From Deltaproteobacteria bacterium (GTDB taxonomy: Bacteria; Myxococcota; JADLHZ01), in assembly GCA_020848545.1 (NCBI GenBank), contig JADLHZ010000021.1, positions 1 through 64,000 on the forward strand: a stretch of DNA of 64,000 bases, written 5' to 3'. The notes below the pieces were generated by a model. It did not search any database. It had not been told where the DNA came from and saw nothing but the letters and a program-made list of their open reading frames with translations. Every line of letters starts with the position of its first letter. Within the stretch, counting starts at the first letter, position 1. Positions 6,458 through 29,103 of the stretch are shown piece after piece. Both the position numbers and the translations under genes were made by a program.

Positions 6458-6481
6458 TACGGGGTGTTAGAGTGATGTCGA

Positions 6482-8493: not shown

Positions 8494-8925
8494 TCACCCT
8501 CGGTCGCATCGCGGGCAACCGCTCCCCATGATCACGCGATGATGAACCGTATCTTGCCATTCATGCCCGCGCTCGCATCGCCAGAATACATATGTCGTCG
8601 AGCTTGGAAGATAGTGCTCTGGGCCAAGCGGGTTTCGCGGGTGCCACTCGCGGGCAACCCACGGATAGCGTTGCGCGGCGTTGTTATGCTTCGTGACGTT
8701 GGCCTTCTTGGCCTGACAGAAGGGGCACAATGTGTTGGGACGCCTCTTTGCCCGCCTGACCATCTCGATGATCGGAGCTTCCCATACGTGGCGGCGAACG
8801 AGTGGACATCGCCATTTTGCCACTATCAGCGACAGTGGCGTCACTTCATTCCGCGGGATCTTGTTTCGCCGGTGCCAATGGATCGCAATGAGTGAACCGG
8901 GCGCAAACAAGGCGTCAGCGCTCAC
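8494..8925 (-). CDS. Small treble-clef zinc-ribbon protein coupled to the SNF2 gene
   Basis: Starting at a GTG (8925) that overlaps the SNF2 stop as GTGA, this gene gives 143 residues. It has two parts: a CPFCQ knuckle near residue 70 and a C-terminal treble-clef unit W..EWHPRNPLGPEHYLP, then FWRCERGHEWQ, then GCPRCDRG at the end. This matches the DUF4379-type treble-clef zinc fingers often fused to, or beside, restriction-like nucleases. Extending the frame upstream to an ATG at 9042 would overlap the helicase by 120 bp and adds only low-complexity residues, so I prefer the GTG. A DNA- or RNA-recognising partner of the ATPase is inferred. Confidence 0.65.
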   Translation of the reverse strand: MSADALFAPGSLIAIHWHRRNKIPRNEVTPLSLIVAKWRCPLVRRHVWEAPIIEMVRRAKRRPNTLCPFCQAKKANVTKHNNAAQRYPWVAREWHPRNPLGPEHYLPSSTTYVFWRCERGHEWQDTVHHRVIMGSGCPRCDRG

Positions 8926-11900: not shown

Positions 11901-12830
11901 CTCGTGCGCCTCCTCATCGCCTTCGCGGTCGTCGCCTTCGAAGCGGGGCGTGAGCGGATCGACGGAGAAATCGAGCAAGACGGGATCGAACAGGCGCGGC
12001 TCGTACTGCCGCGATCGATAGACGTAGACGAGGCCTTCGTCCGTCGGCCGGATCTCGGCATGCTCGGGCGCCGGCCGTGGCGTTGCCTGCACGCGGAAGC
12101 GGAGCCGAAGCGTTCTCACCCTGCGGATGAGCTCAAGGCGAAATTCGTCATCCTGCGGATCGTTCCCCTCATTCAGGATCTCGCGCTCAAGAGCGAGGCC
12201 TCGCGTCAATGCCTGCTGTTCGGCGGTAAGATAGCGTTCGGCGGCCGATCGCAGAGCAAGAACCCCTGGCCTACCGATGATCTGGAATAGTCGCCCTCGA
12301 TACCAATCCTCTTCACAGAGAATCTCGCGCACTGTCGTGTCCGGCATCACCGAGACGAGCGCGCTCAGCTCGCGACTCGGGGCGATGTTCACCATCGCGA
12401 GCGCCGGGTTATCGAGACACTCGGAGATGCCCGCTTCTGCCGCCATCTTTTCGATCGCGGCAAGCTCGCGCGGCGGATCGACGTCCTGCTTTGGGACGGG
12501 CACTCTGCGCGGCGCTTGCTCGCTGAGCATCAACGCCAACTGCTTGATCGCGTGAACGAACTGGGCTCGTTGCGTTGGCGAGAGCCTGAGCAGGAACGTG
12601 TCGCTCGTGTCTCCGAGCAAGTCGCCGAATGTCTGCTCGTCGAGATTCGGAACCTCACGGTTCCAGCTCGCCAGCTGACGAACGTACCAGGCGTTCGAAT
12701 GTTCGAGCAAGGAGTTGACGGGGGCGTCGAGCAGGCCTTGGAGTCCGCGCGCGGCGAGCACGGCGCGAAGATGGCGAAGCGTGCGAGCGGCGCTCACTTC
12801 TTGCGCGAGTCCGCCTGACGGGGAAGGCAT
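8922..12830 (-). CDS. Large SNF2-family ATPase/helicase
   Basis: This 1,302-residue protein carries a complete SNF2 motor in its last 480 residues. LLRPYQRDGFFWL (Q motif region) begins near 820. Walker A DDMGLGKT is near 846-853, DEAH near 940, LTGTPVENNL near 968, and the C-terminal lobe has GGVGLNLTGA and ATDRAHRIGQ near 1212-1221. The first 820 residues, about two thirds of the protein, contain no enzyme motif I recognise; they may be recognition domains. SNF2 motors of this size in mobile islands are often parts of defence systems, but none of the usual partner genes (methylase, PLD nuclease) is here. It is divergent from the HTH/PIN pair and coupled to the zinc-ribbon gene. Confidence 0.85.
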   Translation of the reverse strand: MPSPSGGLAQEVSAARTLRHLRAVLAARGLQGLLDAPVNSLLEHSNAWYVRQLASWNREVPNLDEQTFGDLLGDTSDTFLLRLSPTQRAQFVHAIKQLALMLSEQAPRRVPVPKQDVDPPRELAAIEKMAAEAGISECLDNPALAMVNIAPSRELSALVSVMPDTTVREILCEEDWYRGRLFQIIGRPGVLALRSAAERYLTAEQQALTRGLALEREILNEGNDPQDDEFRLELIRRVRTLRLRFRVQATPRPAPEHAEIRPTDEGLVYVYRSRQYEPRLFDPVLLDFSVDPLTPRFEGDDREGDEEAHELPAGFGLWLCDAAIAWLRKLPPQSAWLKRMAMSPWERTFHALDQTLGAPRASADETLGWWLKKVGGTLHLQPMTRKPLKRGGWSKPRPITASLAASMCGESAAERRALEIIAPHAFEGGSGNYYTPPIPQTQVLRAVLALNGRAPIYADELWEHRLEVKVLHPSLTVVEQDARLELVARIGDGDVEVEAVLEQIDRAGELSAELDAKTNTLTIFSITKKQRELLQILCGGRATFPSAELERLFEVCDRIGQHLDVTVPETLRGEEVPPERRIVVRISPEPDALLLRVLARPLGDLALIPGHGALVVGAREGSMRRFTRRDLAAEASAAIELCQTCELDASSEDAPFVHRLFDRERALAIVERLHERPNVVLEWDKGAWRVHPLKPKNLSFKIGRRRDWFGLEGLAEVAESKVQLAVLLDVVRSGRKYVELAPGEFARISDELRTKLLPVALQTAAKGDAPVVGPAAMLAIEDLAAVAGAFSGDRSFSELRVRMERARTFEPACPAALEDLLRPYQRDGFFWLARLAEWQAGACLADDMGLGKTLQALALLEHRKDLGPALVIAPTSVAANWLTEARRFTPDLDVLLYREMKDRDRALALQKRQVLVISYGMMLRDVERISQAPFATAVFDEAHALKNADSKRAKAAREMNAEFRVALTGTPVENNLGELWALFDLIVPGLFPSREAFAQRFVRPIEKQKDPDRMSALKALVQPFLLRRKKEAVARELPPKIEIVRRVELSDAEKSLYEGARLAAIGRLNGVDMNEESSRFIVLSQLTRLRLCACHPRLYDESSRLGSSKLETLIETVKEIIVEGHRALIFSQFVGHLELVREAIAEAKIAYQYLDGSTPAQARDERVAAFQAGAGDVFLISLKAGGVGLNLTGADYVIHLDPWWNPAVEDQATDRAHRIGQARSVTVIRLVSAGTIEEEILALHAGKRELVMGLLDGSDVAAKWSTAALAALITRSADDRTVSEQPRATTSERGHVARGLQK

Positions 12831-12895
12831 GCATCGCCCACGAGCACGGGATGGAGAAAACCGTCAAGCGTTCGGCGCCAAGCGGCAAACAGTTA

Positions 12896-12922
12896 TTTCA
12901 CTTGTTTCATTTATTTCATTTG
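12896..12922. promoter_or_regulatory. Three tandem 9-bp TTTCAYTTR repeats in the divergent promoter
   Basis: TTTCACTTG, TTTCATTTA and TTTCATTTG follow each other without gaps in the 132-bp space between the SNF2 gene (minus) and the HTH antitoxin (plus). Tandem boxes there are likely binding sites for the HTH protein, which could repress both directions. Confidence 0.45.
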
Positions 12923-12962
12923 AAGTCAGGGCTGGCTATGCTGAGGATGAGCGAGGTGATTC

Positions 12963-13412
12963 ATGTTCGCAAGCGAGGTCATTCCGACGCCGGAGGTCGC
13001 CAGAGAGGCTGGAGTCGCGCTGAAGGCTCTGTACAAGCCGCGACCGAAGACGAAGCGCGCACCGACGATCCGCGTGGTTGTCGACGAAGCGAAGACGCAA
13101 GTGACGATTCCGAGAGCAGCGTATGACTTGCTCTTGGGTGTCTTGGCACAGCTCGCCAACGGCAATCCGGTTTCCATCGTTCCTCACCAGGCGGAGCTCA
13201 CGACGAATCAAGCCGCCGAGATGCTCAATGTCTCTCGGCCGTTTCTTATCCAGCTTTTGGAGAAAGGCGAGCTCCCCTTTCGGATGGTCGGGACACACCG
13301 ACGCATTCGCTACGAGGATCTGCTCAAGTACAAGCGCAACGATGACGCGAAACGTAAAGCGGTCGCGGACGAGCTAGCGGCGGAAGCAAGGAAGATGGGC
13401 TTCGAGTACTGA
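12963..13412 (+). CDS. Excisionase-family HTH protein (antitoxin of the PIN pair)
   Basis: This 149-residue protein has a C-terminal excisionase/MerR-like helix-turn-helix (about residues 78-125, TTNQAAEMLNVSRPFLIQLL, then LPFRMVGTHRRIRYEDLL). The N-terminal 70 residues probably bind the toxin. Proteins of this layout precede PIN-domain toxin genes in many bacteria as antitoxins and autorepressors. The ATG follows GAGGTGATTC. The toxin start (13417) lies 4 bp after its stop. The antitoxin is intact although the toxin is broken, so it could still act in trans or as a regulator of the neighbouring SNF2 gene. Confidence 0.75.
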   Translation: MFASEVIPTPEVAREAGVALKALYKPRPKTKRAPTIRVVVDEAKTQVTIPRAAYDLLLGVLAQLANGNPVSIVPHQAELTTNQAAEMLNVSRPFLIQLLEKGELPFRMVGTHRRIRYEDLLKYKRNDDAKRKAVADELAAEARKMGFEY

Positions 13413-13416
13413 CGAG

Positions 13417-14128
13417 ATGGCATTCACCGTCGTCTATGACGCCTGCGTGTTGTACCCGGCACCGCTGCGCGACCTGCTCATTCGAATCGCGCAGAGCGGG
13501 ATTGCGTATTTCGGTCATCTTGATCACTCCGATCGGCGATCTTGATCGGAGCGAATCGACGCTTTTTGGTCGCGTTTGATTGTTGGCGGTGGCCCTACCT
13601 CATTCCTTTCGTTTCGTCATCGGCTCGGCGGCAAACGCGCACGGGATCACGCGTGCCCGCTGGTCGAAGCACATCGTCGATGAGGTCCGCGGCGCCATCT
13701 TGAAGAACCGACCCGACCTCGATCCACGGCGCATCGAACGGACTATGGAGTTGATGAGCCAAGCGGTCCGTGATGCGCTGGTATCCGGCTACGAGGAGCT
13801 GATCGCCGGGCTATCGCTCCCCGATCCAAACGATCGGCACGTGCTCGCCGCCGCGATTCGGTGCCACGCACAATTGATCGTGACGTCGAACCTCGACGAC
13901 TTCCCGGCGGCGGAGCTCTCGAAGTACGGCATCGAAGCTCGCGATCCGGATTCGTTCGTCGTCGACCAGATCCACCTCGCCCCTGCGCGCATGTACCAAT
14001 TGATCACCGAACAAGCGGCCGCCCTTGGCGACCCGCCGATGACGGTCGATGACGTGCTCGATTCACTGGCGCGCAACGGGTTGTTGCAGGCCGTAGCGTT
14101 GCTCCGAGCGCAGCGGGAGAGCTTCTAA
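13417..14128 (+). pseudogene. PIN-domain toxin gene interrupted by a 139-bp insertion
   Basis: The frame opens MAFTVVYDACVLYPAPLRDL, carrying the first PIN acidic residue. It runs into a stop inside foreign DNA at about 13545. Removing 145 bp (a 139-bp insert plus one CGGGAT copy) restores ...QSG-ITRARW... and a continuous frame to 14128. That frame holds the remaining PIN motifs (LPDPNDRHVLAAAI and LIVTSNLDDFP). The intact protein would have been about 188 residues, a Mg-dependent ribonuclease toxin paired with the upstream HTH antitoxin. As it stands, no functional toxin can be made. A TTG-initiated C-terminal fragment from 13580 is open but lacks the first acidic residue. Confidence 0.8.
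13503..13641 (-). mobile_element. 139-bp internally deleted IS21-like derivative (MITE-like)
   Basis: The insert is bounded by CGGGAT duplications (13497-13502 and 13642-13647) and has TGCG...CGCA tips. Read from 13503, its first 75 bases match the right end of the IS21 element (reverse complement from 5645) at 65 positions by my hand count. Looser similarity continues to about base 125, after which come only some ten bases matching the left terminus (TGCGCGTTT). It is thus both ends of a related IS21 element with the interior lost. The match is too diverged to have come directly from the copy at 2717-5645. Confidence 0.8.
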
Positions 14129-14307
14129 TGTTGTTGCGCCTTCGACCCCTCGACGAAAGAAACCAGCGCCCCCGGTTCGACCCGAATGCTGTTCAGCACG
14201 CGCACATGCGGAAGCCGTCCGGAAAAGCAGAGCGCGTACACAACGGGTCGCGACACACCGAGCTTGCGCGCGACCTGCGCCACGGTCAGCAGATCCTCAA
14301 GCGGCAT
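14125..14307 (-). CDS. Small excisionase-like HTH protein
   Basis: This 60-residue protein starts at an ATG at 14307. Nearly all of it is one helix-turn-helix of the excisionase/AlpA kind: LLTVAQVARKLGVSRPVVYA, then LPHVRVLNSIRVEPGALVSF. It lies on the integrase strand, just beyond the tRNA fragment, and overlaps the PIN remnant stop by 4 bp tail to tail. A recombination directionality factor or small repressor is likely. The same HTH style recurs at 17317-17598. Confidence 0.6.
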   Translation of the reverse strand: MPLEDLLTVAQVARKLGVSRPVVYALCFSGRLPHVRVLNSIRVEPGALVSFVEGSKAQQH

Positions 14308-15526
14308 ATCGGCCGCGTTGGGACCAAACTTGGGACCAAAATCTTTGGTAACCGATGGAAAATCTGTGACCGGTTGTGATCGGCCGTTTTTTCGATCCCG
14401 AATCTTTCCGCCGACTTGCGAAGATTTGATAAGGTCTGGACTCCCCTCCGATGCCATTGCACTCGGTTTGGGACCAGAAGGCCGCAGGTTCGAATCCTGC
14501 TGCCCCGATGTTTTTCGCCTTTGAATTGCTTGGGTTTTCCCCGCCCCCCTCACCGTCTTTTGGGTCGTCGGGACCCTTTGGCAGCAAATTGGCAGCAAAC
14601 CACTGCTTACTCGAGAGCGTTTTCAGCGCCGCCTCGGGCATCGCCGCCGTCATCTTGTCCATGCCCGCGCGGCGCAGTGCCCGGCGAAAGATCGCCGCGA
14701 GCTTGATCTCCTCTGGATGCATCGTCCCGTCCGGCCGCGGGAACACGAGCTCCGAGGGCGAGGCGTTGATTGCGGCCTCGAGGATCGGAAGCAGCGGCGG
14801 CGCGATCGGCAGCATGTCGTGGTGGCCGCCCTTCGTTTGATCGCGATCCCACGACCGTCTCACCGTGAGCTCGCGCACGGCGAGGTCGACGTCTGACTTC
14901 CTCAACGCGGCCAGCTCGCCCTTCCGTAGCTCCGTCCACAGCGCGCAGGCGAAGAAGGCGCGCCATTGCTTCGGCAGCGCGGTCAGCACCGCCGACACTT
15001 CATGAAAGCGCAGGTAGTCGGGAAAGCGTTTTGCGATCTTCCGCTTCTTCACGCGCGTGACTGGGTTCTCGGCGGTGAAGACATCGGCGCCGCGCGCGTA
15101 GTTGAAGGCGGCGTGGAGGTAGCCGCGGAAGTTGTTGAGGCTGTGCGCAGACAGGCTCTTCGCCTTGCTCTGAAGAAACCGCTCAACCTGACCCGCCGTG
15201 ACTTGGAAGATGAGCGTCGAGCCGAGCTCATGCTCACGCAAATGCTTCTTCTGAAAGCTCCGCACGTCTTCTTCCGTCGGCGTGTCCTTCCAATAGGTCT
15301 CGACGCACCAATCGAGCAGCACGTTCACCGTCCAAAGGTCCTGCCCCTTTACGTCGGGCAGACGCTTCTTCTTCTCGCCAATGCCGATCTCGAGATCGAT
15401 CAGCGCGGCTTTCGCTTCGTTCTTCGTTCGAGCGTCGAGCCGTTGGTCGCGCCAGCGGCCATGCTCGTTCTTGAAGTGCGCGAACCATTGCCCGGGCCGT
15501 TTTTCATAGATCGGTGCCACGCTCAT
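14297..15526 (-). CDS. Tyrosine recombinase/integrase lacking its catalytic C-terminus
   Basis: The 409-residue frame has an Arm-type N-terminus (YEKRPGQWFAHFKNEHGRWR), a core-binding domain (about 75-170) and the first half of a tyrosine-recombinase catalytic domain. The box-I arginine (ALWTELRKGELAAL) and the beta-hairpin lysine (DQTKGGHHDM) are visible. After RRALRRAGM, where HxxR, H/W and the nucleophilic tyrosine should follow, the sequence becomes unrelated and the frame reads straight through the tRNA fragment to 14297. The enzyme should be inactive. ATG at 15526 overlaps the upstream xis-like stop (ATGA), the normal xis-int coupling. Confidence 0.8.
   Translation of the reverse strand: MSVAPIYEKRPGQWFAHFKNEHGRWRDQRLDARTKNEAKAALIDLEIGIGEKKKRLPDVKGQDLWTVNVLLDWCVETYWKDTPTEEDVRSFQKKHLREHELGSTLIFQVTAGQVERFLQSKAKSLSAHSLNNFRGYLHAAFNYARGADVFTAENPVTRVKKRKIAKRFPDYLRFHEVSAVLTALPKQWRAFFACALWTELRKGELAALRKSDVDLAVRELTVRRSWDRDQTKGGHHDMLPIAPPLLPILEAAINASPSELVFPRPDGTMHPEEIKLAAIFRRALRRAGMDKMTAAMPEAALKTLSSKQWFAANLLPKGPDDPKDGEGGGENPSNSKAKNIGAAGFEPAAFWSQTECNGIGGESRPYQIFASRRKDSGSKKRPITTGHRFSIGYQRFWSQVWSQRGRYAA
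14465..14508 (+). other. 3' fragment of a tRNA-Pro(UGG) gene: integration site
   Basis: These bases contain the anticodon-loop sequence TTTGGGACCAGA, a perfect T-arm (GCAGG-TTCGAAT-CCTGC, 14484-14500) and the 3' acceptor strand ending CTGCCCCGA. No matching 5' half (an acceptor starting CGGGGC) lies upstream, and the 5' anticodon strand does not pair, so this is not a complete tRNA. A tRNA 3' end next to an integrase gene is the classic scar of island integration (attL/attR). Confidence 0.7.
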
Positions 15527-17847: not shown

Positions 17848-18161
17848 TCCACCGCGGTGAGATCCGCTGGTTCAAGTTCTCGAAGCCAGACAAGCGCCGC
17901 CCGGTATTGATCCTTTGCCGCGAGGAACTGATCGATGGCCTCGACCAGATCCCGGTGATCCCGTGCTCGACGCAGATCCGCGGCCTCGCATCCGAGGTGT
18001 TACTCGGCGAAGCCGACGGCATGCCAGCGGCGTGCACGCTCAAGCCCGAGTGGATCCGCGCAGTCAGCCGCGGGGAGATCGGCCCGCTCATCGCGAGGTT
18101 GCCGTAGGGCCGATGGACCGATGTCGAGCGCGCCGTCATGTACGTCCAGGGATTTCGATGA
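17844..18161 (+). pseudogene. MazF/PemK toxin gene with an in-frame amber codon
   Basis: The frame starts MIHRGEIRWFKFSKPDKRRP and continues with VLILCREE and VIPCSTQIRG. These are the PemK/MazF beta-barrel motifs, including the arginine and serine/threonine region used to cut RNA. It meets TAG at 18105-18107 after 87 codons. Reading through, the same frame gives GRWTDVERAVMYVQGFR and TGA at 18159-18161. That is the expected C-terminal helix and brings the length to 105, usual for MazF. The truncated 87-residue product lacks this helix. Nonsense mutation or a sequencing error are both possible. Confidence 0.7.
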
Positions 18162-18365: not shown

Positions 18366-19700
18366 TCACGACAGCTCCGCCGTATCCGCGAGGCCGCTCG
18401 CTTGCGCTTCGGCCTGGACGTCGCTCGCCACTGCTTCGTGCATCTTCTTGTTCAGCACCGATGGCAGCAGCGCGTCCTTCTCGGCATGCGAGGCGATCTG
18501 TTCCGCCGCGGCGACCAACATACCCTTCGTGATGCTCCGCGCCCTCGCATGCAAGGCACCCATGAACAGCCCGGGAAAGGCCAACGCGTTGTTGATGCTG
18601 GCACCGTCAGACGCGATCGCGGCCCCGGCGTCGAGCGCGTCCCAGGGGGAGATCTCGGGCTTCGGGTTCGACAGCGCGAAGATGATTTGGCCTTTGCGAA
18701 CGAGGCGCGCCGGGATCAGCCCTTCTTTGCCGGTCGCCGCGATGACGACGTCGCACTCGCGCATGATGTGCTCGATGTTCACGCTCGCTGCTCCGGCCAT
18801 CGTGGCGCGGGCGACGGCGGCCGGTGATAGATCGTGGACGAGCACGTCGCGCACGCGAAAATGCAGGAGCAGCAGAGCGATCGCGCTCCCTGCCGCACCA
18901 AGGCCGATCTGACCGACGCGCAGCTCGCGTGGGTCCTTGCCGACGCGATCGCAGGCGTTGATCACCGCCGCGAGCGTCGCCGTCGCGGTGCCGTGCTGAT
19001 CGTCGTGCATCACGGGCTTTTTTAGCCGGCGCGACAGCTCGTCTTCGATGGCGAAGCAGTCGGGCGCCTTGATGTCCTCGAGGTGAATGCCGCCGACCGA
19101 CGGTGCTACAGCCATCACGACTTCGACGAACTTCTCCGGCGTCTTCGCATCGAGCACGAGAGGAAACGCGTTGAGCCCGGCGAGCTGCGCATAGAGGAGC
19201 GCCTTGCCTTCCATGACTGGCAAGGACGCCAATGTTCCGGTATCGCCGAGGCCGAGCACGCGCGTGCCGTTCGAGAACACGCCGACCGTTCGGCCGATGC
19301 CGGTCAGCGACCAAGCATCGGACGGGGTTTTCTGCAGCCGGCGAACGATGCGCGCGACGCCGGGCGTGTAGACATGCCGTAACGCACGCACCTGATCGAC
19401 CGGTCGCTCGGCGACGACACGGATCTTGCCACCCACATGCGCGTCGGCCACGGGATCGATGACTTCGAGCAGCTTGACGCCATCGAGCTTGCCCACCGCG
19501 TTCTTGAGCCGATCGAAGATGACGTCGCTCTCCGTCTCAACGGTGAAGTCCCGGATGGTGAGCTCTTCGGAGTCGGCGACGGTCGCGATTTCGCCGACGA
19601 GCGCGCCTTGCTCGGCGATACACTGAGCCACGCGTGCGAGCTGGCCGATGCGGTGTTGCAGCTTGAGGCGCAGAACGTAGTCGACGCTGTGCTTGCTCAT
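18366..19700 (-). CDS. Malic enzyme with N-terminal ACT domain
   Basis: This 444-residue enzyme decarboxylates malate to pyruvate with NAD(P)+. Residues 1-75 form an ACT-type regulatory domain (YVLRLKLQHRIGQLARVAQC). The malic domain follows with RHVYTPGVARI, LGLGDTGTLASLPVMEGKAL, EDIKAPDCF and VMHDDQHGTA (metal and substrate ligands). The nucleotide-binding domain carries GLGAAGSAIA. ATG 19700 is used; an upstream extension would overlap the neighbour. It is the last gene of the PEPCK-Dab run, 2 bp after the previous stop. ACT domains usually bind small effectors, so allosteric control is likely. Confidence 0.88.
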   Translation of the reverse strand: MSKHSVDYVLRLKLQHRIGQLARVAQCIAEQGALVGEIATVADSEELTIRDFTVETESDVIFDRLKNAVGKLDGVKLLEVIDPVADAHVGGKIRVVAERPVDQVRALRHVYTPGVARIVRRLQKTPSDAWSLTGIGRTVGVFSNGTRVLGLGDTGTLASLPVMEGKALLYAQLAGLNAFPLVLDAKTPEKFVEVVMAVAPSVGGIHLEDIKAPDCFAIEDELSRRLKKPVMHDDQHGTATATLAAVINACDRVGKDPRELRVGQIGLGAAGSAIALLLLHFRVRDVLVHDLSPAAVARATMAGAASVNIEHIMRECDVVIAATGKEGLIPARLVRKGQIIFALSNPKPEISPWDALDAGAAIASDGASINNALAFPGLFMGALHARARSITKGMLVAAAEQIASHAEKDALLPSVLNKKMHEAVASDVQAEAQASGLADTAELS

Positions 19701-19702
19701 GG

Positions 19703-20875
19703 TCAATTCCTCATAGTTGGCCAGACCGTGAGCAGGCCGAGGGTCACGGTGAGCGCGATCAAAGCGGTGCGTTCGCGGAGAAGCGCGTCGGCCGGGAGAC
19801 GAAGGTGGGTCTTGGGACCGAAGAAACCGAGCAGCACCAAGCGGAAAATGCCGATCGCGACGAGCACCGCGGCGAACATCATCAGCACGGCGATCATCGG
19901 GTTCGTCGAGAGCAAGCCGTCGACGAGCAGATCTTCGCCGATGAAAGCCGGCGCGCCCGGGAGCGCGACGATCGCGATGGCAAAGACGAGCGCGAAGCGG
20001 CCGAACCACTGGCCGCCGTCGTGACCGAAGCCGCTCATGCTCGCATCCATCGGTCGACCGAGCCGTGCCTCGATGCCGTGCAGGATCAAGAGCAGGCCCG
20101 AGAGCGCGAGCGCGGCGCTGGCGCCGAGCAGCGCGCCGCCCAGGCGAACTGATGAGGCGGGATGAGACAGCGCCACGACCATCGTGCCAGCCAAAGAAAC
20201 GCTGATCGCCGCGATCACGCGCTTAGAGCTGCTGCGCACGAGCGTCGCGAGAGCACCGCTCATCGTAGCGAAGAGACCAATCCAGAGCAGAGAATCGTGT
20301 AGCCGTGCGGACGGTGAAAGCAACGCGAGGGCGGAAAACGGAGTGGCGACGACGATGACCGACAGCTCTAGCGGCGCCTCGTCGATGAGCACGAACAGCC
20401 ACGAGTGAAAGGGGGGAACGCCGAGTCGTAGGAGTGCAGCGCCGAGCAGAAGAGTGGTGTCATGTGGCGAAGGAACGAGCGCCGCGGCGGTGATGAGGAG
20501 CGTGTGGGCGCCGATGCCGAAGAACCACGCCCGCCGTAGCCGGGCCACGTTCGGTGCCCGCGGATCGAGCTCGGCGATCCCCCACGCGAAATAAACGTTG
20601 GCGCCGGCGATGCCTGTCATCGTTGACGGCCAGAGGGTCGACGCAAGCACCGAGAGCTCGACGAGAACCAAGCGAACGGCGCCGCCGTGGCTTAGCGACG
20701 CCGTCGCACGAAAGGCCGCCACCGCGAGAAAGGCGACCGCAGCGACGGCCGTCACCATGGCGTGAAGCGGATCGACACCCGCGGCGTTTGGCGCGGCGGC
20801 GAAGTAGATCCCAGCGAAGGCGAGCACGGCATGGACGCCGAGCGACCAACGGCGCAGGCGAACGAGCTCGCTCAT
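19703..20875 (-). CDS. NuoM/N-like proton-conducting membrane subunit
   Basis: This 390-residue protein has about 11 hydrophobic segments. It belongs to the proton-translocating NADH dehydrogenase/Mrp antiporter superfamily: LLLGAALLRLGVPPFHSWLF is the characteristic helix, and SSKRVIAAISVSLAGTMVVA contains the channel-type lysine neighbourhood. It overlaps the preceding DabB-like gene by 4 bp and lies 2 bp before the malic enzyme. Known Dab systems need only one such subunit, so a second one, shorter than a typical NuoN, is unusual. It may complete a split DabB or couple a different ion. Confidence 0.7.
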   Translation of the reverse strand: MSELVRLRRWSLGVHAVLAFAGIYFAAAPNAAGVDPLHAMVTAVAAVAFLAVAAFRATASLSHGGAVRLVLVELSVLASTLWPSTMTGIAGANVYFAWGIAELDPRAPNVARLRRAWFFGIGAHTLLITAAALVPSPHDTTLLLGAALLRLGVPPFHSWLFVLIDEAPLELSVIVVATPFSALALLSPSARLHDSLLWIGLFATMSGALATLVRSSSKRVIAAISVSLAGTMVVALSHPASSVRLGGALLGASAALALSGLLLILHGIEARLGRPMDASMSGFGHDGGQWFGRFALVFAIAIVALPGAPAFIGEDLLVDGLLSTNPMIAVLMMFAAVLVAIGIFRLVLLGFFGPKTHLRLPADALLRERTALIALTVTLGLLTVWPTMRN

Positions 20876-22170
20876 TGGGGCCTTCGCTCGCCGAACAAGA
20901 TGCGTTCGAGCTCGTCTTCGAGCGTGATCAAGAGCCGGGCAGTCCGCGCGACCGGGCGCAAGAACACGCGGTGCAGCAACGCTTCGACGAAAAATCCGTG
21001 AAAGGCGAGCATGTAGAGATAGCTCGAGCGGGGCACGCTGGCGTGGCCGGCGTCTTCGCCGAGCGTCGCGCGGCGCGCGAGATGATCAGTGAGCCCGCTG
21101 CCCGCGCGCAGAAACTGAAAGGTGCGCAGCGTGACGTTGGCGAGCATGTGGACGAGCGCCACGACGTAAAGCTGGAGCGCGATCTCGATGAAGACGATGC
21201 CGACCTGTCCCACGGTCGCAAAGGCGAGCGCGTTCTTCGCGTCCGCTTGGGTTCGCACAGTCAGGCTCGCAGTGATCGCGGTGATGGCGCCGACCGCGAG
21301 CACACACATGCGGACGAGCAGTGACTCGTCGAGCAACGGCGCCATGCGGAGGAGCAGGAACACCCCCGTATGCACCGAGATGGCGCCATAGAAGAGCGCG
21401 CTCGACGGCGTCGGTCCTTCCATGGCTCGCGGCAGCCACATCGTGACCGGAAACATCGCTGACTTGCCGATCGCCGCGATGAGAAAGAGCCCGCCGAGCA
21501 GCGACGCTTGCGACGACTCGAGGTGCGCGGTCCACAGTGGCCATTCACCCGGGCCAAACGCGTGTTGCCAGTCGCTCGCGTGGGCATAGTGGTGCAACAT
21601 GACCACGCCGGCGAGAAGGCCCATGTCGCAAATGCGATAGACGATGAAGACGTACATCGCGCGTCGCACCGGCATGGGGCGCCGCCAGAAGAAGGCGACG
21701 AGCAGTACCGAGCTCAACCCGACGAGCTCCCAGCCGACAAAGAGCAGATCGATGTTGCCGCTTGTTTCGAGCACGAACGAGCCGAAGGCGAAGATCAGAA
21801 AGCAAACCGAAAAGCGGGCAGCGCCGCTCTCGCGGTACATGTAGGTCGCGGAAAAGCGCGCCACCACGCCGAGGATCAGCGCGCTGAAAAAGATCCAACC
21901 CACCGCCAGTGCGTCGACGACGAAGAGCAGGCGGAATGCGTAGTCGCCGACCCGGATGAGATCGCCGAAGTCGGCGCTCATCGGGTGACCCCGTGCTGCC
22001 ACGCTGAGCCCCAACAGCCCGACGCTCGCGAGCACACACAGCGACATCGCGGCGCCGGTGATGCGCTGGAGCGTCACCTCGCCGAACGGGCGGTTCACGA
22101 CCAGCGCCGCGAGGACGAGCGCGATGGCGCAGAGCGGCGAGAGCAGGAGGACGGCGAGGCACGCGCTCAT
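20872..22170 (-). CDS. dabB: DabB-like NuoL-family membrane subunit
   Basis: This 432-residue integral membrane protein of the NuoL family shows WELVGLSSVLLVAFFW, LIAAIGKSAMFPVTMWLPRA and TPSSALFYGAISVHTGVFLL. These are the lysine- and histidine-bearing helices of the proton channel. DabB partners DabA to couple ion flow to CO2 hydration/bicarbonate accumulation. The start overlaps the dabA stop (ATGA). It is shorter than ordinary NuoL proteins. After the channel it ends in LLITLEDELERILFGERRPQ rather than more helices, and the next gene supplies further membrane segments. Confidence 0.78.
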   Translation of the reverse strand: MSACLAVLLLSPLCAIALVLAALVVNRPFGEVTLQRITGAAMSLCVLASVGLLGLSVAARGHPMSADFGDLIRVGDYAFRLLFVVDALAVGWIFFSALILGVVARFSATYMYRESGAARFSVCFLIFAFGSFVLETSGNIDLLFVGWELVGLSSVLLVAFFWRRPMPVRRAMYVFIVYRICDMGLLAGVVMLHHYAHASDWQHAFGPGEWPLWTAHLESSQASLLGGLFLIAAIGKSAMFPVTMWLPRAMEGPTPSSALFYGAISVHTGVFLLLRMAPLLDESLLVRMCVLAVGAITAITASLTVRTQADAKNALAFATVGQVGIVFIEIALQLYVVALVHMLANVTLRTFQFLRAGSGLTDHLARRATLGEDAGHASVPRSSYLYMLAFHGFFVEALLHRVFLRPVARTARLLITLEDELERILFGERRPQ

Positions 22171-24998
22171 CGCTTCGCCTCAATCACTTTGGGCGTGACG
22201 AAGTCTCTCTCTCCACAGCAGGCGTCGAGCGATGTCGCGACCACCGCGAGGGGCTCGCGTCTCACATCGTAGGGTCGCAGCGTCTTGCCGTCATAGCGAT
22301 CGATTTGGCCGCCTTGTGGATCGAGGCGTAGGAGGAAGAACCAAGCGCGTTCGAGCCAACCGCGGGCGAGCGGCAGCTGCGAAAATGCTCGTTCGAGCTG
22401 TGCCGCGCTCGCCTCGACGACGACGAGCAGGCGCATCGGCTCGTGGATCTCCACGGTTTGCCTCCAGAGCCCGGTGCGCAAGTCGCTGCCGTGGCCGTTC
22501 ATCACCGCGAAGAGTCCTGTGAGGTTGTGTGGCAGCTTCGTGCCGCAGCCGAAGCGTTCGTTGTCGACGGTCGAGAAGTAGTACTCGAGGTTGATGCCGA
22601 CGACGACCGGCAACACGGCGCCGAGCTGCCGCGTCAGGTGCTCGGCGTCCGGGTCGATGGTTGCGTCGTAGGAGACCAGAAAGCTCCGCCGATCGAGGAA
22701 GAGCCCGCGCGTACGCGAACGCCGGCCGATGATGCAGGACGCGTTCGTCGCATGGTTGTACTCCGGTCGCGCCTCGGCGAGGTTCACCGAACGCGCCTCG
22801 ACATGCGCAAGCGCTTGGGCCAGCGTCCGGCGGCGCGAGCCAAAGGGGAAGCGCCGGATCCGTTCGTGTGCGTTCTTCGCCCGCGCTTCGTCGAAGAGCC
22901 GCGCAGCCTCGGCGAGCGCGGCGCGATGCGACGGCGGCACGAGCTCGAGATCGAAGAGCTCGATCTCTTCGTTCGTGGTGTCATGCTCGCCGCCGATGAA
23001 CCAAGTCGCATCGGGGATGCGCACGCCGCGCCCCGTGAGCTCTTGCCGCACCTTTGGATCGTTCGCCATCGCCGCGAAGCTGCGCGCGTTCGGGCCGCCT
23101 CGCCGACCGCCGCAAGCGCCGCACTCGTAAGCCGAGCGATGCGGATTGTTCGCGCTGGTCGAGCCGTGGCCGAGCAAGATCACGAGGGGCGCAAAGCGAT
23201 CCTTCAAGCCCGCGCCGGCGAGCACGACGTAGACACGCTCGGTCATCTCGGCGACGGAAAAGCCGAGGGTTTGGTCGCTCTCTGGATGCTCGTCGCGCGC
23301 CACGGTCAGCTTCGTCTGCGGCGGCTGAAAGAAGAGTCGGCGCAGCTGTAGCGACACGCGATGCGACAAGCGCGGGCTCAAGATGCGCGCGAGCAAGGGA
23401 AACGCGGTGGCGATCCCGAGCAGGAACGTAAAGAACGATCCGCGGACCAGCGAGCGCGAGCTGGCGCTCGAGTGCTTCTCGAGGTGCGCGAAGCGCCGGC
23501 GCCAGCGCGCGCGTATCGCCGCGAAGCCATGTGCTTCGATCGGTCGTTCCTCGACTCGGTGCGCCGGCGCGAGAACCACCGGGCAGAGCGGCGCGAAGCC
23601 ACCGTCGTCGAGCCCGCGGTAGGACATCGCGACGCCGAAGAAACCGGCCGCGCCGAAGGTCTCGACGCGCGCGTCCGTCTCTTCGAGGTGCCGGCGAAAC
23701 GACTCTTCGCGATCGTCGATGCACGTGATGACCTGGACGACTGGAGTTTCGACGACTGGCTGCGGCCGATGCTGCGCGAGCGCCGAGGCGATGGTATCGC
23801 GATAGCGCCGCTCGTAGGCTTCTTGCCAAATCTCAGCGCGCGCGAAGGCGTCGATGCGGGTGACGGCTGCGAGCAGCTCGAAGCAACGTTCTCGACTGAG
23901 CGTCGCGGCGGCGCCGGAGGAAACCCCGGCGTGCTGGAGCACGAACAACAAACGCAGCGCGCGCTGGAGCATGATGCCTTCGCTCGTGGTCGGCACTTCG
24001 TCGCCGCGCGGGGCATCGAGCGTTGCAGCGGCGATGTCATCGTCCGAATAGGCGAGCGCGAGCAGCAAACGAACGGCGAGGTAGTCGACGAGCCGGGCCG
24101 ATGGCAGCTCCGGTGGCAGCTCGGTCGGATTCTTCTCCAAGCGATTGAACATGCCGGCCCATCCCGCGAGCTGCAGGCATTGGCGCTCGAGGACGTGCGA
24201 GGCCTCGGCCCGCGCGACCCGGAGCGAGTCGAGCGCAAAGAGCACCGTTTGGCTCGCCGAGCGGCGCTCGACGGCCACCCGCTCGAAGAGCTCGGCCGCT
24301 CTCTTCAACGCGACACTGGCGAAGATCGATCGATGCCGGAGAAGCTCGGTCGCGGCGCCGAAGAAGCCAAGCTCGCGCTTCGGCATCTGCCACGCTGCCA
24401 TGCCGCGATCGAGGTAGGCTGCGCACAGCCGAATGAGCAGCGACTGCATCAAGGGATGATCGTTCGGCTCGTCGCGCGCCGGTTCGCCCGGCGGCTCCTC
24501 AATGGCTCGCGCTAATTGGATGCAGGCTTCCCAGAGCATGTGATCGGTTCTAGGGCGTGGCAGCACGCCCTCGCTCACCGCCCAGGGGAGGGAAGCGACC
24601 GCGATCTTCTTGGCGTGAAAGTCGAGCTCGATGAGCAGGAGGTCGCGCCAGGAGATGAGCTCGGCGATACGGCGCTTGCCGCCGAGCCCGGTCGCTTCCA
24701 AGTACGCGTCGACGGCTGCTTCGAGATCGCCGCGGCGGATCCTGCCACTCGTGAGCGCCGCGTGAAACTCGCGCTCTGACTGATAGGTGGTCGCGCCGTA
24801 GATACGCGCGGCATCACGCAACGCCAGGTGAAAGTCCCGATCCTCGAAGCCGTGCAGCGTGTTGTGGTGCACAAAGACTTCGAGCGGCCGTTGGTCCGGC
24901 AGGAGGTGCGCGATGTGGTCGAGCGTCTCCTCAAGCCACGCTTCGTCCCGTTCCTCGGAGCCGAGATGCCCGGTCCTCGCTGCGCTCGTGTGACTCAT
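22167..24998 (-). CDS. dabA: DabA inorganic carbon transporter subunit (DUF2309)
   Basis: This 943-residue cytoplasmic-side protein matches DabA/DUF2309, a zinc protein resembling a beta-carbonic anhydrase that with DabB accumulates inorganic carbon. The N-terminal FVHHNTLHGFEDRDF block is characteristic. The metal/active-site residues sit in VITCIDDREESFR (Cys, Asp) and in LLGHGSTSANNPHRSAYECG (His and Cys). All four expected ligands are present, so the protein looks functional. ATG 24998 is embedded in an inverted repeat with 25069-25079 that could hide the start codon in the mRNA. It heads the dab genes and is preceded by pckG on the same strand (133-bp gap). Confidence 0.88.
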   Translation of the reverse strand: MSHTSAARTGHLGSEERDEAWLEETLDHIAHLLPDQRPLEVFVHHNTLHGFEDRDFHLALRDAARIYGATTYQSEREFHAALTSGRIRRGDLEAAVDAYLEATGLGGKRRIAELISWRDLLLIELDFHAKKIAVASLPWAVSEGVLPRPRTDHMLWEACIQLARAIEEPPGEPARDEPNDHPLMQSLLIRLCAAYLDRGMAAWQMPKRELGFFGAATELLRHRSIFASVALKRAAELFERVAVERRSASQTVLFALDSLRVARAEASHVLERQCLQLAGWAGMFNRLEKNPTELPPELPSARLVDYLAVRLLLALAYSDDDIAAATLDAPRGDEVPTTSEGIMLQRALRLLFVLQHAGVSSGAAATLSRERCFELLAAVTRIDAFARAEIWQEAYERRYRDTIASALAQHRPQPVVETPVVQVITCIDDREESFRRHLEETDARVETFGAAGFFGVAMSYRGLDDGGFAPLCPVVLAPAHRVEERPIEAHGFAAIRARWRRRFAHLEKHSSASSRSLVRGSFFTFLLGIATAFPLLARILSPRLSHRVSLQLRRLFFQPPQTKLTVARDEHPESDQTLGFSVAEMTERVYVVLAGAGLKDRFAPLVILLGHGSTSANNPHRSAYECGACGGRRGGPNARSFAAMANDPKVRQELTGRGVRIPDATWFIGGEHDTTNEEIELFDLELVPPSHRAALAEAARLFDEARAKNAHERIRRFPFGSRRRTLAQALAHVEARSVNLAEARPEYNHATNASCIIGRRSRTRGLFLDRRSFLVSYDATIDPDAEHLTRQLGAVLPVVVGINLEYYFSTVDNERFGCGTKLPHNLTGLFAVMNGHGSDLRTGLWRQTVEIHEPMRLLVVVEASAAQLERAFSQLPLARGWLERAWFFLLRLDPQGGQIDRYDGKTLRPYDVRREPLAVVATSLDACCGERDFVTPKVIEAKR

Positions 24999-25079
24999 CG
25001 GCCACCCGCCGGCGTGAGGAGAACGACATTGTCCCCCTGGACGCGCCTGCTGGCGTAGTACGCCGTCTGGGTGGCCGAT
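24997..25079 (-). promoter_or_regulatory. Leader inverted repeat over the dabA start codon
   Basis: ATCGGCCACCC (24997-25007) and GGGTGGCCGAT (25069-25079) are perfect 11-bp reverse complements. In the minus-strand mRNA the downstream arm contains the GGGTGG ribosome-binding region and the AT of the dabA ATG, so the hairpin would sequester initiation. Translational control or a structured leader is an inference. Confidence 0.5.
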
Positions 25080-25114
25080 TCTATTTTCCCCCCGGAGAGG
25101 CCTGCTGGCCTAGT
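25045..25114. repeat. Direct repeat GCCTGCTGGCNTAGT upstream of dabA
   Basis: GCCTGCTGGCGTAGT (25045-25059) and GCCTGCTGGCCTAGT (25100-25114) differ at one base and start 55 bp apart in the pckG-dabA gap. The second copy contains AGGCC/GGCCT arms around four bases. They may be paired operator sites or part of the leader structure. Confidence 0.5.
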
Positions 25115-25131
25115 GGCGACCGAGTCGATCA

Positions 25132-26880
25132 TCAGGCGGCCGGCGGAAATTCCAAGCGACGAATGAGCGCGCCGTGCTCGCGGCGAAGCGTCATCGGCAA
25201 GCGATCGCCAAAACGTTCGAGAAATGCGCCGTTGCGTTCGGCCTCCTGCAGCCACGTTCCCCGATCGACGTCGAGCAGCGCGCGCAGGCGGTTTGCCGGC
25301 ATCAGCATGTTCGACGTGTCGATGTCGGTTGAGCGCGGCAGCCGGCCGATCGGCGAGTCGATCGCGGAGACCCGATCTTCGACGCGATCGAGGATCCACT
25401 TCAGGACGCGGATGTTCTCGCCGTAACCTGGCCAGAGGAACTTTCCGTCGTTGTCTTTTCTGAACCAGTTGACGTGAAAGATTTTCGGCCGCTTGGGCCC
25501 GGCGAACGTCAGCCAATGAGCAAAATAGTCGCCCATGTTGTAGCCACAGAACGGCAGCATCGCCATCGGGTCGTTGCGCGGCACGCCGACATCCCCGTTG
25601 GCCGCGGCGGTCGTCTCCGAGACCATCGTCGCGCCAACGTAGACACCGTGATCCCAGTTGAAGGCTTCGTAGACGAGCGGGGCCAGACGCGCGCGCCGGC
25701 CGCCGAACAAGATCGCCGAGATCGGCACGCCGCGGGTGCTGTCCATCTCGCGGCTCATGCTCGGGCATTCGCGCAAGGAGACCGTGAAACGAGCGTTCGG
25801 GTGCGCGGCGGGCTCGCCCTTCTCCAGGGTCCAGCCAAGTCCGCGCCAATCCGTCAGCCTTCCCGGCACCTCGTCATCGAGCCCTTCCCACCAAGGTGAC
25901 CCGTCAGCCGTGAGCGCTACGTTGGTGAAGATCGCGTTCTGCCGCACCGATGTCATCGCGTTCGGATTGCTGCGGGTGTTGGTGCCAGGCGCGACGCCGA
26001 ACATCCCGGCTTCCGGATTTACCGCCCAGAGCCGCCCGTCATTACCGGGGTGCAGCCAGCAGATGTCATCGCCAACGGTCTCGACCTTGTAGCCGGGCAG
26101 GGCGGAGACGAGGAGCGCGAGGTTCGTCTTGCCGCAAGCGCTCGGAAACGCAGCCGCGACGTAATGCTTGTGCCCGGCGGGAGTCGTCACTCCGAGAATC
26201 AGCATGTGCTCTGCGAGCCAGTTTTCCCGGCGACCCTGCACGCTCGCGAGCCGGAGCGAATGACACTTCTTGCTGAGCAGCGCGTTGCCGCCGTAGCCCG
26301 ACCCCACGCTGAGAATCGTGCTCGTCTCGGGAAAGTGACAAATGTACCGACGCTCCGGATGGAGGTCCGCCGTACAATGCACGCCGCGAACGAAGTCCGT
26401 ACCGTCGCCCAGGTGGTCGAGCGCGATCTGGCCCATCCGAGTCATGACGCGCATGCTGATGACGACGTAGGGACTGTCGGTGATTTCGACGCCGACGCGC
26501 GAGCACGGAGATCCCACCGGGCCCATCAAGTACGGCACGACGTACATCGTGCGGCCGCGCATCGCTTGACGGAGGATCGCGTAGACGCGCGTCTCGGCGT
26601 CTGCCGGGCTCATCCAGTTGTTCGTAGGCCCGGCGTCGGCCTTGTCGCGCGAGCAGATGAAGGTCTGTGCCTCGGTTCGGGCGACGTCGTTCGGATGCGA
26701 GCGATAGAGGAAGCTATTCGGCCACTTCTTCTCGTTGAGGGCGATGAGCGTTCCCGCACTCACCAACTCCTTCTTCAGCGCGAGATCTTCTTCGGCGCTG
26801 CCGTTGCACCAGACGATGCGATCCGGCGTTGCGAGCTTCGCGATCGAGTCCACCCATTGCTTGAGCGCTTGATTTGCCAT
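25132..26880 (-). CDS. pckG: GTP-dependent phosphoenolpyruvate carboxykinase
   Basis: This 582-residue enzyme interconverts oxaloacetate + GTP and PEP + CO2 + GDP. Visible family landmarks are RSHPNDVARTEAQTFICS, FPSACGKTNLAL (phosphate-binding loop plus the reactive cysteine), GDDICWLHPGNDGRLWAVNP and FGGRRARLAPLVYEAFNW. Length is typical of the GTP class (about 590-620). I use ATG 26880 (MANQALKQW); the frame extends upstream, but without family-like sequence. It is the first of five same-strand genes ending in malic enzyme and faces the PTS-enzyme-I operon across a 204-bp divergent region. Confidence 0.92.
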   Translation of the reverse strand: MANQALKQWVDSIAKLATPDRIVWCNGSAEEDLALKKELVSAGTLIALNEKKWPNSFLYRSHPNDVARTEAQTFICSRDKADAGPTNNWMSPADAETRVYAILRQAMRGRTMYVVPYLMGPVGSPCSRVGVEITDSPYVVISMRVMTRMGQIALDHLGDGTDFVRGVHCTADLHPERRYICHFPETSTILSVGSGYGGNALLSKKCHSLRLASVQGRRENWLAEHMLILGVTTPAGHKHYVAAAFPSACGKTNLALLVSALPGYKVETVGDDICWLHPGNDGRLWAVNPEAGMFGVAPGTNTRSNPNAMTSVRQNAIFTNVALTADGSPWWEGLDDEVPGRLTDWRGLGWTLEKGEPAAHPNARFTVSLRECPSMSREMDSTRGVPISAILFGGRRARLAPLVYEAFNWDHGVYVGATMVSETTAAANGDVGVPRNDPMAMLPFCGYNMGDYFAHWLTFAGPKRPKIFHVNWFRKDNDGKFLWPGYGENIRVLKWILDRVEDRVSAIDSPIGRLPRSTDIDTSNMLMPANRLRALLDVDRGTWLQEAERNGAFLERFGDRLPMTLRREHGALIRRLEFPPAA

Positions 26881-26960
26881 CGTGCTGCGCGGCTGAGCAA
26901 CATTCGGGCCACGGCAACGCTCGCGGTTTCGCGCCGAAAGCGCACTCATCGAAGTCGATC

Positions 26961-27474: not shown

Positions 27475-29103
27475 ATGAACGAACGAGTCACAGTGCTCAA
27501 AGGTGTGCCTGTCTCCGAGGGCATCGGCCTTGGAACGATTGTCGTCCTGGCCGACGGCGACCAGTCGGGCTCCATCGAGCGCACGATCGCACCTGACTTG
27601 CTCGTTGCCGAATGGAGCAAGCTCTCGGCGGCCTTGCAACGCGCCTCGGCCGAGCTTCGCCATCTCGAAGGTCTCGTTGCGGCTCGCATTGGTCATCGCG
27701 TCTCGGACGTCTTTCACGCCCAGTCGATGATCCTCGAAGACGAGACCTTCGTCACCGAGCTTCGCTTCGTCCTCTTCGATCGGCGCATCGACGCGGCCGC
27801 CGCGGTGAGACACGTCATCGGGCGCTGGGAGAAGACGTTTCGCGACCTGCAAGCACCCCACCTGAGCGAGCGGTGGGCCGAGGTCCGCGAGGTCGGCGCG
27901 CTGGTCGTGGCGGCGCTGAGCCCTGACCCGACTGCCGAGCCAGGCGAGATCCCTTCGGGAGCCGTGGTCGTCGCGCGACTTCTGGGTGCGGCAACCTGCG
28001 CGCGCCTACCATTCGAACGAATCAAGGGGATCATCACCGAGCAGGGCGGGCGCACGTCGCACGCATTCATCCTCGCGAGAGCCGGCGGTATCCCCGCTGC
28101 TACCGGCATCGCGAATGCGCTCACGCTGCTCCGCAATGGCGACGACGTCATCATCGACGGGATGAGCGGGCTTGTCATCGCCAATCCAAACGATGCGACG
28201 CGGCGCGAGTACATGCAGACGCTCGCCAACCTGACGAGCACGCCCGTGAAAACACCGGCACAAGTGCGCGCCAAAGATGGCTCTGCCTTCGAGATTCTCG
28301 CGAGCATCGGCAAGTCCGCCGACGCCGCAGGTGCGATGGCGCTCGGAGCCGATGGCATCGGTCTCTTCCGTACGGAGTTTGCGTACATGGTGCGGCCGAG
28401 CCTTCCGCGCGAGGACGAGATTGCGGAGATCGCCCGCTTTGTCGAAGAGCGCTGCGCACCGAAGCCCGTCGTGTTCCGGTTGCTCGACATCGGCGGCGAG
28501 AAGACGCCCGTGTACCTCTCGGCGACGATCGGCACCGGTAACGCTCGCGGGCTACGCTTGCTCCTCGAGCATCGCGAGCTGCTCGAAGCACAGCTCCGCG
28601 GGTTGCTCGCCGGGCTGAAAGGCACCGAGGTGCGGCTGCTCGTGCCGATGATCACCTCCATAGGCGAGTTTCGCATCGTCCGTGGCCTCGCCGACGCGAT
28701 CTGGCGCTCGGCAGCGAAGAGCTACGGCGATCGCGAGCAACACTTGCGGGTCGGCGCGATGATTGAGACGCCGGCCGCCGTTTGGATCGCCGAAGACCTC
28801 GCGAAGGAGGCGGACTTCTTCAACGTCGGCCTCAACGATCTGACGCAGTACACGCTCGCGGTCGATCGCGACGATCCCCTGGAAAAGGACTTCGAGCCGG
28901 CGCACCCGGCGATCGAGCGCAGCCTGCGGCACGTCTTCGCGGTCGCGCATGCGAACAAGGTGCCGGTGACGATCTGTGGCGAGCCCGCGATGGCCGCCGG
29001 TCTCTTCGCCACGCTTGCGGCGATCGGATTTCGCAGCTTTTCGGTCGGCGCATCGAGCCTGGCTCGCGTCCGCGCAGAGCTCGAAGCGTGGGGAAAGGAG
29101 TAG
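27475..29103 (+). CDS. ptsI: PEP-protein phosphotransferase (PTS enzyme I homologue)
   Basis: This 542-residue protein has the enzyme I layout. The N-terminal HPr-binding/swivelling domain carries the phospho-accepting histidine in GIITEQGGRTSHAFILARAG. The C-terminal PEP-binding TIM barrel contains GLFRTEFAYM, VFRLLDIGGEKTPVYL and a terminal FFNVGLNDLTQYTLAVDRDD block. No GAF domain is present, so it is EI rather than PtsP type. No HPr or sugar permease is in the window. Its likely job is regulatory phosphate transfer reading the PEP pool, which fits the divergent pckG. The next gene is a partial receiver. Confidence 0.88.
   Translation: MNERVTVLKGVPVSEGIGLGTIVVLADGDQSGSIERTIAPDLLVAEWSKLSAALQRASAELRHLEGLVAARIGHRVSDVFHAQSMILEDETFVTELRFVLFDRRIDAAAAVRHVIGRWEKTFRDLQAPHLSERWAEVREVGALVVAALSPDPTAEPGEIPSGAVVVARLLGAATCARLPFERIKGIITEQGGRTSHAFILARAGGIPAATGIANALTLLRNGDDVIIDGMSGLVIANPNDATRREYMQTLANLTSTPVKTPAQVRAKDGSAFEILASIGKSADAAGAMALGADGIGLFRTEFAYMVRPSLPREDEIAEIARFVEERCAPKPVVFRLLDIGGEKTPVYLSATIGTGNARGLRLLLEHRELLEAQLRGLLAGLKGTEVRLLVPMITSIGEFRIVRGLADAIWRSAAKSYGDREQHLRVGAMIETPAAVWIAEDLAKEADFFNVGLNDLTQYTLAVDRDDPLEKDFEPAHPAIERSLRHVFAVAHANKVPVTICGEPAMAAGLFATLAAIGFRSFSVGASSLARVRAELEAWGKE

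Follow-up and report, generated by a model that had tools for sequence, protein, structure and literature searches.

Five genes on the minus strand, at positions 18366-26880 of a 64-kb stretch of DNA from a Deltaproteobacteria bacterium (contig JADLHZ010000021.1, positions 1 to 64,000; termed the window), code in order for GTP-dependent phosphoenolpyruvate (PEP) carboxykinase (PEPCK), DabA, DabB, a NuoM-like protein and malic enzyme. The three central genes very probably encode a DAB-type complex, in which DabA does not have the membrane-finger glutamate that is essential in the DAB2 complex of Halothiobacillus neapolitanus. In all 44 loci of this kind with a visible DabB (the window included), a Glu-Asp module or a NuoM-type glutamate is found elsewhere, most often in a third, NuoM-like subunit. 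The overall explanation proposed here, a three-subunit DAB-type complex together with CO2 retention at the PEPCK/malic enzyme node, stands about evenly between right and wrong.

The gene run

The features of the run are as follows.

25132-26880, minus strand: GTP-dependent PEP carboxykinase (Pfam PEPCK_GTP/PEPCK_N; NF003253; PDB 4wie, E 5.1e-203)
24996-25114, minus strand: leader element in the PEPCK-dabA gap (two 32-nt repeat copies and an 11-bp stem)
22167-24998, minus strand: DabA, 943 aa (PF10070, 766.1 bits, cut-off 25; phmmer match to PDB 9rd0 DabA2; alignment rows)
20872-22170, minus strand: DabB, 432 aa (PF00361, Proton_antipo_M, 126 bits; PDB 9rd0_B DabB2, E 7.4e-24)
19703-20875, minus strand: NuoM-like third subunit, 390 aa (PF00361, 32.9 bits, cut-off 21.5; NuoM alignment; third-gene alignment)
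18366-19700, minus strand: malic enzyme, 444 aa (malic 78.7 and Malic_M 43.6 bits, both above cut-off; PDB 1ww8, E 6.5e-68)

Open reading frame (ORF) positions and Pfam/NCBIfam matches bear out the same-strand run of five genes described in an initial annotation of this DNA, and the close spacing of the last four as well. PEPCK and dabA are separated by 133 bp (24999-25131); two 4-bp overlaps and a 2-bp spacing follow. The genes may be co-expressed. The source genome is a draft of 8.0 Mb in 163 contigs, with completeness rated at 100% and contamination at 1.83%.

DabA: zinc site and membrane finger

The DabA domain above its cut-off, the zinc and dyad residues and the adjoining NuoL-like DabB place the module in the DAC/DAB group. 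The Cys/His/Cys zinc ligands and the Asp-Arg dyad are kept in the window DabA, where C426, D428, R430, H611 and C626 correspond to C351, D353, R355, H524 and C539 of H. neapolitanus DAB2, and the metal and active-site residues first assigned to this protein are thereby upheld. These residues are invariant in all 71 DabA rows aligned; L089, a C-terminal DabA fragment of genome G070, was excluded from this table, and the fragment G070:C47:1-177 is also not included.

In DAB2, whose structure was published in 2026, passages of the report describe DabA Glu444 as an essential residue on a membrane-entering finger, where it takes the place of NuoL Lys399/Asp400 (PMC13144422). The finger of the window DabA has neither Asp nor Glu; according to two alignments, the Glu444 position is occupied by Leu or by Phe, depending on the alignment.

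The acidic residue outside DabA

DabB is visible in 62 of the 71 DabA rows, 18 with the finger glutamate and 44 without it. In the remaining nine it is not visible (six with the glutamate, including the DAB2 reference row, and three without). The 44 loci without the glutamate comprise 37 with an aligned third gene, six in which DabB is fused to a similar tail, and one (L069) whose third gene was located by hand and stands outside the 37. Four of the 37 are embedded among Nuo genes (L003, L007, L011 and L012), and in these the residue after the glutamate is Leu, Phe, Phe and Gln, respectively, and not Asp. Among the 18 DabA genes with the finger glutamate, none has a Glu-Asp module in the DabB tail and none has a third-gene match in its stretch. 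No report of the Glu/Glu-Asp exchange appears in the titles and opening abstract lines of the open-licence literature matches listed, and neither the exchange nor the DabB fusion is described in the passages of related papers.

The third genes are divergent, with 26-33% identity to that of the window (tblastn). When they are aligned (with only the C-terminal 560 residues of any ORF above 560 aa), E407 and His241 of NuoM are each conserved in 37/37; K234 and E144 are each kept in 4/37, the keepers being the same four Nuo-embedded clusters. The window subunit has a Gly-Glu-Asp motif at residues 313-315. Compared with NuoM of Complex I, it retains Glu407 of transmembrane helix (TM) 12 and His241 but not E144, K234 or K265, and it scores 55.4 bits with the NDH_I_M model, below the cut-off of 263.8.

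DabB differs between the two classes. The window DabB has 61 aa after the NuoL-365 column, as against 156-199 in the DabB of finger-glutamate genes and 165 in the DabB2 fragment employed. Short-DabB loci have tails of 61-99 aa, and the four Nuo-embedded clusters tails of 135-287 aa. The six fused DabB tails are similar to third genes, with best blastp E values of 1e-13 to 5e-6, and DAB2-type DabB tails show no such resemblance (E 0.048 and 0.28). In DabB of the class without the finger glutamate, NuoL Glu144 is conserved, and Tyr and Arg (in one case Gln) occupy the positions of His and Lys in glutamate-class DabB. In its first part (348 columns), a model of a fused DabB (pLDDT 75.9) superimposes on Escherichia coli NuoL at 1.5 A, and in a longer structural alignment residues 1-413 of the model pair with NuoL 1-562, with ~403 residues aligned. 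From this pairing the helices after TM11 are read as lost. By alignment, the window DabB would consist of the part equivalent to NuoL TM1-11 plus a short tail, without the helices of the second half-channel.

The proposed mechanism is as follows. DabA would hydrate CO2 to bicarbonate at the zinc site, driven by protons passing through the membrane part. DabB would be the NuoL-like half, with TM1-11 and the cytoplasmic half-channel, its later helices having been lost. The finger glutamate, by which the proton path is completed in DAB2, is missing from DabA. The NuoM-like subunit, in which most NuoM channel residues are lost and the TM12 glutamate is kept in the Glu-Asp motif, would then be the most likely source of the outer half-channel. 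That the third gene is an integral part of the complex is probable. That it supplies the outer half-channel, as judged from sequence comparison, is a matter of even chances.

On a different explanation, the third gene would be a relic of NuoM, structural in role or degenerate, and protons, or Na+ with bicarbonate, would pass through DabB and DabA alone. The divergence of the third genes and the loss of most channel residues are in keeping with this, as is the Na+/bicarbonate transport proposed for MpsAB of Staphylococcus aureus in passages of PMC6689103. However, the motif glutamate is kept in every aligned third gene, the Glu-Asp motif recurs in the six fused DabB tails, and DabB is without the NuoL part that follows TM11. 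A relic is considered rather unlikely.

Several points weigh against the half-channel proposal itself. The motif glutamate may be structural, as His241 is equally invariant. With a pLDDT of 47.3, the AlphaFold prediction for the third subunit of the window is too poor to position it. The fused DabB model is matched only to about residue 450 in the best rows, with the motif region outside the matches; that DAB2 is not among the 50 structure matches listed for it carries no weight either way. A DabA tree built by a quick method, without L087, has a single deep split (support 100); the finger label changes twice in the tree, and the program warns of long branches converging at the split. The data thus represent one contrast, with three architectures on the side without the glutamate, and not dozens of independent cases. 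One of the two label changes is L045 (2-2797), a DabA within the glutamate clade that has Gly at the finger position and whose DabB is absent from the contig.

A class that does not have the DAB2-essential residue, yet has an equivalent acid in another subunit, offers a direct mutational test of the proton-coupling model. If the proposal of a half-channel split between subunits is true, it would explain the presence of the NuoM-type gene in these operons.

Relation to known systems

The operon type is already known. In passages of the 2017 COGNAT study (PMC5700660), clade C of YbcC (COG3002) is described as having operons in which ybcC precedes nuoL, with NuoM-type and SulP genes alongside. 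The DabA-DabB-NuoM-like order of the window is the same, with the NuoM-type gene being COG1008. Clade C often, though not always, has the SulP gene COG0659, which the window does not have, and the passages make no mention of PEPCK or malic enzyme. According to a suggestion of the COGNAT authors, additional membrane subunits may point to additional ions.

The window shares with DAB2 (PDB 9rd0; passages of PMC13144422) the DabA zinc site, the Asp-Arg dyad and a DabB that matches NuoL TM1-11. It differs in the missing Glu444, in a shorter DabB (432 aa, compared with 551 aa and 15 TM in full-length DAB2-type DabB) and in the additional NuoM-like subunit. Gene order differs also: DabA follows DabB in glutamate-class loci with a visible DabB, and precedes it in the window.

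Like the window, the DAB1-type operon (DAB1 being described in passages of PMC13144422) combines DabA and DabB with another membrane protein. A plasmid of Nitrobacter hamburgensis carries what we read as a DAB1-type operon, with DabB first, then a 254-aa protein, DabA with the finger glutamate, and P-II, next to carboxysome genes. The window has no small membrane protein between DabB and DabA and no P-II; its dabA and dabB overlap directly. The Nitrobacter blocks are in tandem (1417-7303 and 8336-14222 of the plasmid stretch, L118), and one accession for the 254-aa protein is common to both copies. MpsAB, portrayed in passages of PMC6689103 as a DAC homologue that serves a bicarbonate-needing heterotroph, is likened here by description and not by sequence.

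A second DabA cluster of the same genome is the Nuo-embedded locus L012 (G000:C104, 5285-15579), which has genes for a cyclic nucleotide (cNMP)-binding regulator, a NuoM-type protein, a DabA of 1073 aa, a NuoL-type protein and two more PF00361 proteins. The genes for ribosomal protein L2 and ribosomal protein S3 flank it, which apparently places the cluster within the S10 operon.

Linkage to PEPCK and malic enzyme

PEPCK and malic enzyme are well identified. The longest PEPCK ORF is 25132-26949; its homologous part extends from about 26880, in agreement with the start chosen in the initial annotation, and structure alignment begins at residue 25 of the long form. The protein scores 531.8 bits with Pfam PEPCK_GTP, above the cut-off, and 861.6 bits with the GTP-PEPCK equivalog model NCBIfam NF003253 (cut-off 504). 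It carries SACGKTN and VGDDIC, which we take to be nucleotide motifs. The signature motifs of malic enzyme are present as well; catalytic meanings are presumed for the motifs of both enzymes. No specific NCBIfam malic enzyme model is passed, the best being NF009501, of 764 positions (218.5 bits, cut-off 1178), and a probable ACT domain is found at the N-terminus (ACT_4, 21.1 bits, under the cut-off of 27).

The genome set used for comparison has the source genome as the sole representative of its family, order and class, other relatives being at the level of phylum. DabA is present in 45 of the 195 genomes of the phylum. The other DabA loci number 58: 48 stretches from other genomes of the phylum, the second copy of the source genome, and nine contigs from other organisms. 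Flanks reach up to ~8 kb, less at contig ends, and were searched with the five window proteins by tblastn (E up to 1e-4). The results weigh against a functional linkage. No PEPCK or malic enzyme match is found near DabA in any of the 58 loci, nor in 11 plasmid stretches (11 of 123 DabA-matching records, chosen from 40 listed; 12 DabA genes, two sharing one record). Near-full-length relatives of the window malic enzyme, as judged by query ranges that include the N-terminal part, are found in 11 other genomes of the phylum, and none of these 11 neighbourhoods, some on short contigs, has dab genes or PEPCK.

A conserved PEPCK-dab or dab-malic enzyme linkage is accordingly rejected, and the expectation that a survey of DabA neighbourhoods would show it in relatives fails for relatives at the phylum level. 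Because neither the DabA loci, the plasmid stretches nor the malic enzyme neighbourhoods provide another instance, the linkage, which is real in the window, looks private to it within the loci examined. It is also not reported in the titles and opening abstract lines of the open-licence literature matches listed. In three genomes that have no DabA match (G011, G028 and G047), PEPCK is within ~8 kb of another malic enzyme type on one contig, as read by eye.

DabA is adjoined by a SulP-type transporter, the usual neighbour of this class, in 37 of the 46 loci that have no finger glutamate (L045 being counted here), 33 times upstream on the same strand and four times downstream; Pfam confirmed SulP in the three transporters tested. 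It adjoins DabA in none of 11 finger-glutamate loci, five of which have a short upstream flank. There is no SulP match in the 64-kb window, where PEPCK sits in the upstream slot and malic enzyme in the downstream slot of the dab module. The genome has a second GTP-PEPCK on a different contig (G000:C85:49819-51585), with 55% identity to the window copy and with no dab, malic enzyme or SulP match in the surrounding 20-kb stretch. A single copy of malic enzyme was found in the genome search.

PEPCK and malic enzyme could be bystanders, a lineage-specific gene order beside an ordinary clade C DAB module. This is a serious contender whose chances fall only a little short of even. The absence of either gene from other DabA loci, and of dab and PEPCK from the malic enzyme neighbourhoods, speaks for it, as do 12 other genomes in which PEPCK and DabA matches on one contig are at least 0.7 Mb apart (coordinates read by eye), and the integrase and MazF/PemK-like genes that lie beyond malic enzyme. 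On the other hand, the NuoM-like and malic enzyme genes are 2 bp apart on one strand, two CO2 enzymes of one metabolic node flank the dab genes from both sides, neither pyruvate carboxylase nor PEP carboxylase gives a hit in the genome, and the class of the organism is represented by one genome in the comparison.

Carbon metabolism

The inorganic-carbon module recognized initially is confirmed as DAB-type by domains and residues, in an organism that yields no hit to RuBisCO (controls matched 5/14 genomes). Searches of the genome also gave no hit for pyruvate carboxylase (PYC_OADA domain; controls 7/14 genomes) or PEP carboxylase (PF00311; controls 7/14 genomes), the archaeal-type PEP carboxylase being outside the search. 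Isocitrate lyase is likely absent, since its best match is weak (1.1e-17, compared with ~1e-47 to 1e-75 in most other matching genomes). PEPCK, in two copies, and malic enzyme, in one, are the C3-C4 CO2 enzymes found, and given the lack of RuBisCO, pyruvate carboxylase and PEP carboxylase hits, they may perhaps be the main C3-C4 route. A dissolved inorganic carbon machine is placed in a cell without a RuBisCO hit, one possibly reliant on CO2-using anaplerotic enzymes.

According to Table 1 of PMC10880623, PEPCK and malic enzyme use CO2, mostly as decarboxylases, and bicarbonate is the substrate of PEP carboxylase, pyruvate carboxylase and acetyl-CoA carboxylase. As both enzymes use CO2, a machine that removes CO2 is not their direct feeder, and this too counts against a functional unit of the five genes. 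Of the bicarbonate-fed anaplerotic or CO2-recycling unit put forward at first, bicarbonate-fed anaplerosis as worded is therefore set aside as doubtful, and CO2 retention is the more consistent form. DAB beside PEPCK and malic enzyme would retain CO2 and not feed the enzymes directly, unless carbonic anhydrase re-equilibrates the pool. The module would most likely serve to keep CO2 released or needed at the PEPCK/malic enzyme node from escaping, by holding it as bicarbonate. A metabolic coupling of the dab module to the two enzymes is put forward tentatively, with the chances leaning against it.

The opposite direction can also be considered: without the finger glutamate, the complex might be uncoupled or work backwards, converting bicarbonate to CO2, which PEPCK and malic enzyme would then use in carboxylation. 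The use of CO2 by both enzymes (PMC10880623), the lack of hits for a bicarbonate-using anaplerotic carboxylase (PYC_OADA, PF00311) and the SulP transporters that accompany this DabA class elsewhere would fit. Yet the same class occurs in other genomes with neither PEPCK nor malic enzyme nearby, the window itself is devoid of SulP, and stored bicarbonate would be spent. Uncoupling or reversal is highly unlikely.

A candidate leader RNA between PEPCK and dabA

The gap between PEPCK and dabA has two copies of a 32-nt repeat, at 25083-25114 and 25028-25059, from which the repeat pattern was drawn. An 11-bp stem (25069-25079 paired with 24997-25007) encloses the loop in which the second copy is found, and the dabA start codon is part of this stem. 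With up to three mismatches the repeat core is found at four places in the genome: two in the gap, one between fliR and flhB, and one after a Castor/Pollux-type channel gene. The flhB leader (L131, 1469-1556) is similar, its repeat being surrounded by a stem of 11 bp to which the start codon belongs. Between the dabA and flhB leaders, five of 11 stem pairs have a substitution in each strand of the stem, with pairing preserved throughout; this comparison of only two sequences is equalled by 17 of 500 shuffles. Fold z values are -4.99 for the dabA leader and -2.97 for that of flhB, and -3.71 and -1.26, respectively, with longer flanks.

The gap leader matches no Rfam family and no known riboswitch, and was not found in viral contigs (exact pattern) or plasmids. 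An RNA model from the two sequences gives one extra match, a weak one of 27.2 bits (E 0.014), at the third known site (L132); the rest of the 76 sources (1.25 Mb) give E 0.22 or worse, and a further 398 kb of the source genome adds nothing new. No promoter or terminator is listed on the minus strand of the gap. A terminator-like site is present on the plus strand (25062-25075). Region-wide there is one promoter-like site (1.1 expected) and 11 terminator-like sites (6.4 expected). From its predicted fold, the leader looks like a candidate translational control element that hides the dabA start codon, and it may separate PEPCK from the dab genes in regulation.

The most inclusive form of the proposal combines these elements. 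There would be two mechanistic DAB classes, one with the glutamate in the DabA finger and one with a Glu-Asp helix in a third NuoM-derived subunit or DabB fusion. Here SulP would have been exchanged for PEPCK and malic enzyme, with translation under an RNA that hides the start codon, to give a CO2 retention unit at the sole C3-C4 carboxylation node of a heterotroph. Taken with all its parts, this form is improbable.

Wider surroundings

Beyond malic enzyme are a phage-type integrase gene (14297-15526, minus strand) and a MazF/PemK-like toxin gene (17850-18107, plus strand), and GC content dips at ~12-17 kb of the window. No tRNA gene was found in the 64-kb window. The region of the integrase, toxin gene and GC dip is possibly an island border. 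On the other side, upstream of PEPCK and divergent from it, is a phosphotransferase system (PTS) enzyme I type gene (PEP-protein phosphotransferase; 27475-29103, plus strand), followed by a response regulator gene and two methyltransferase-like genes.

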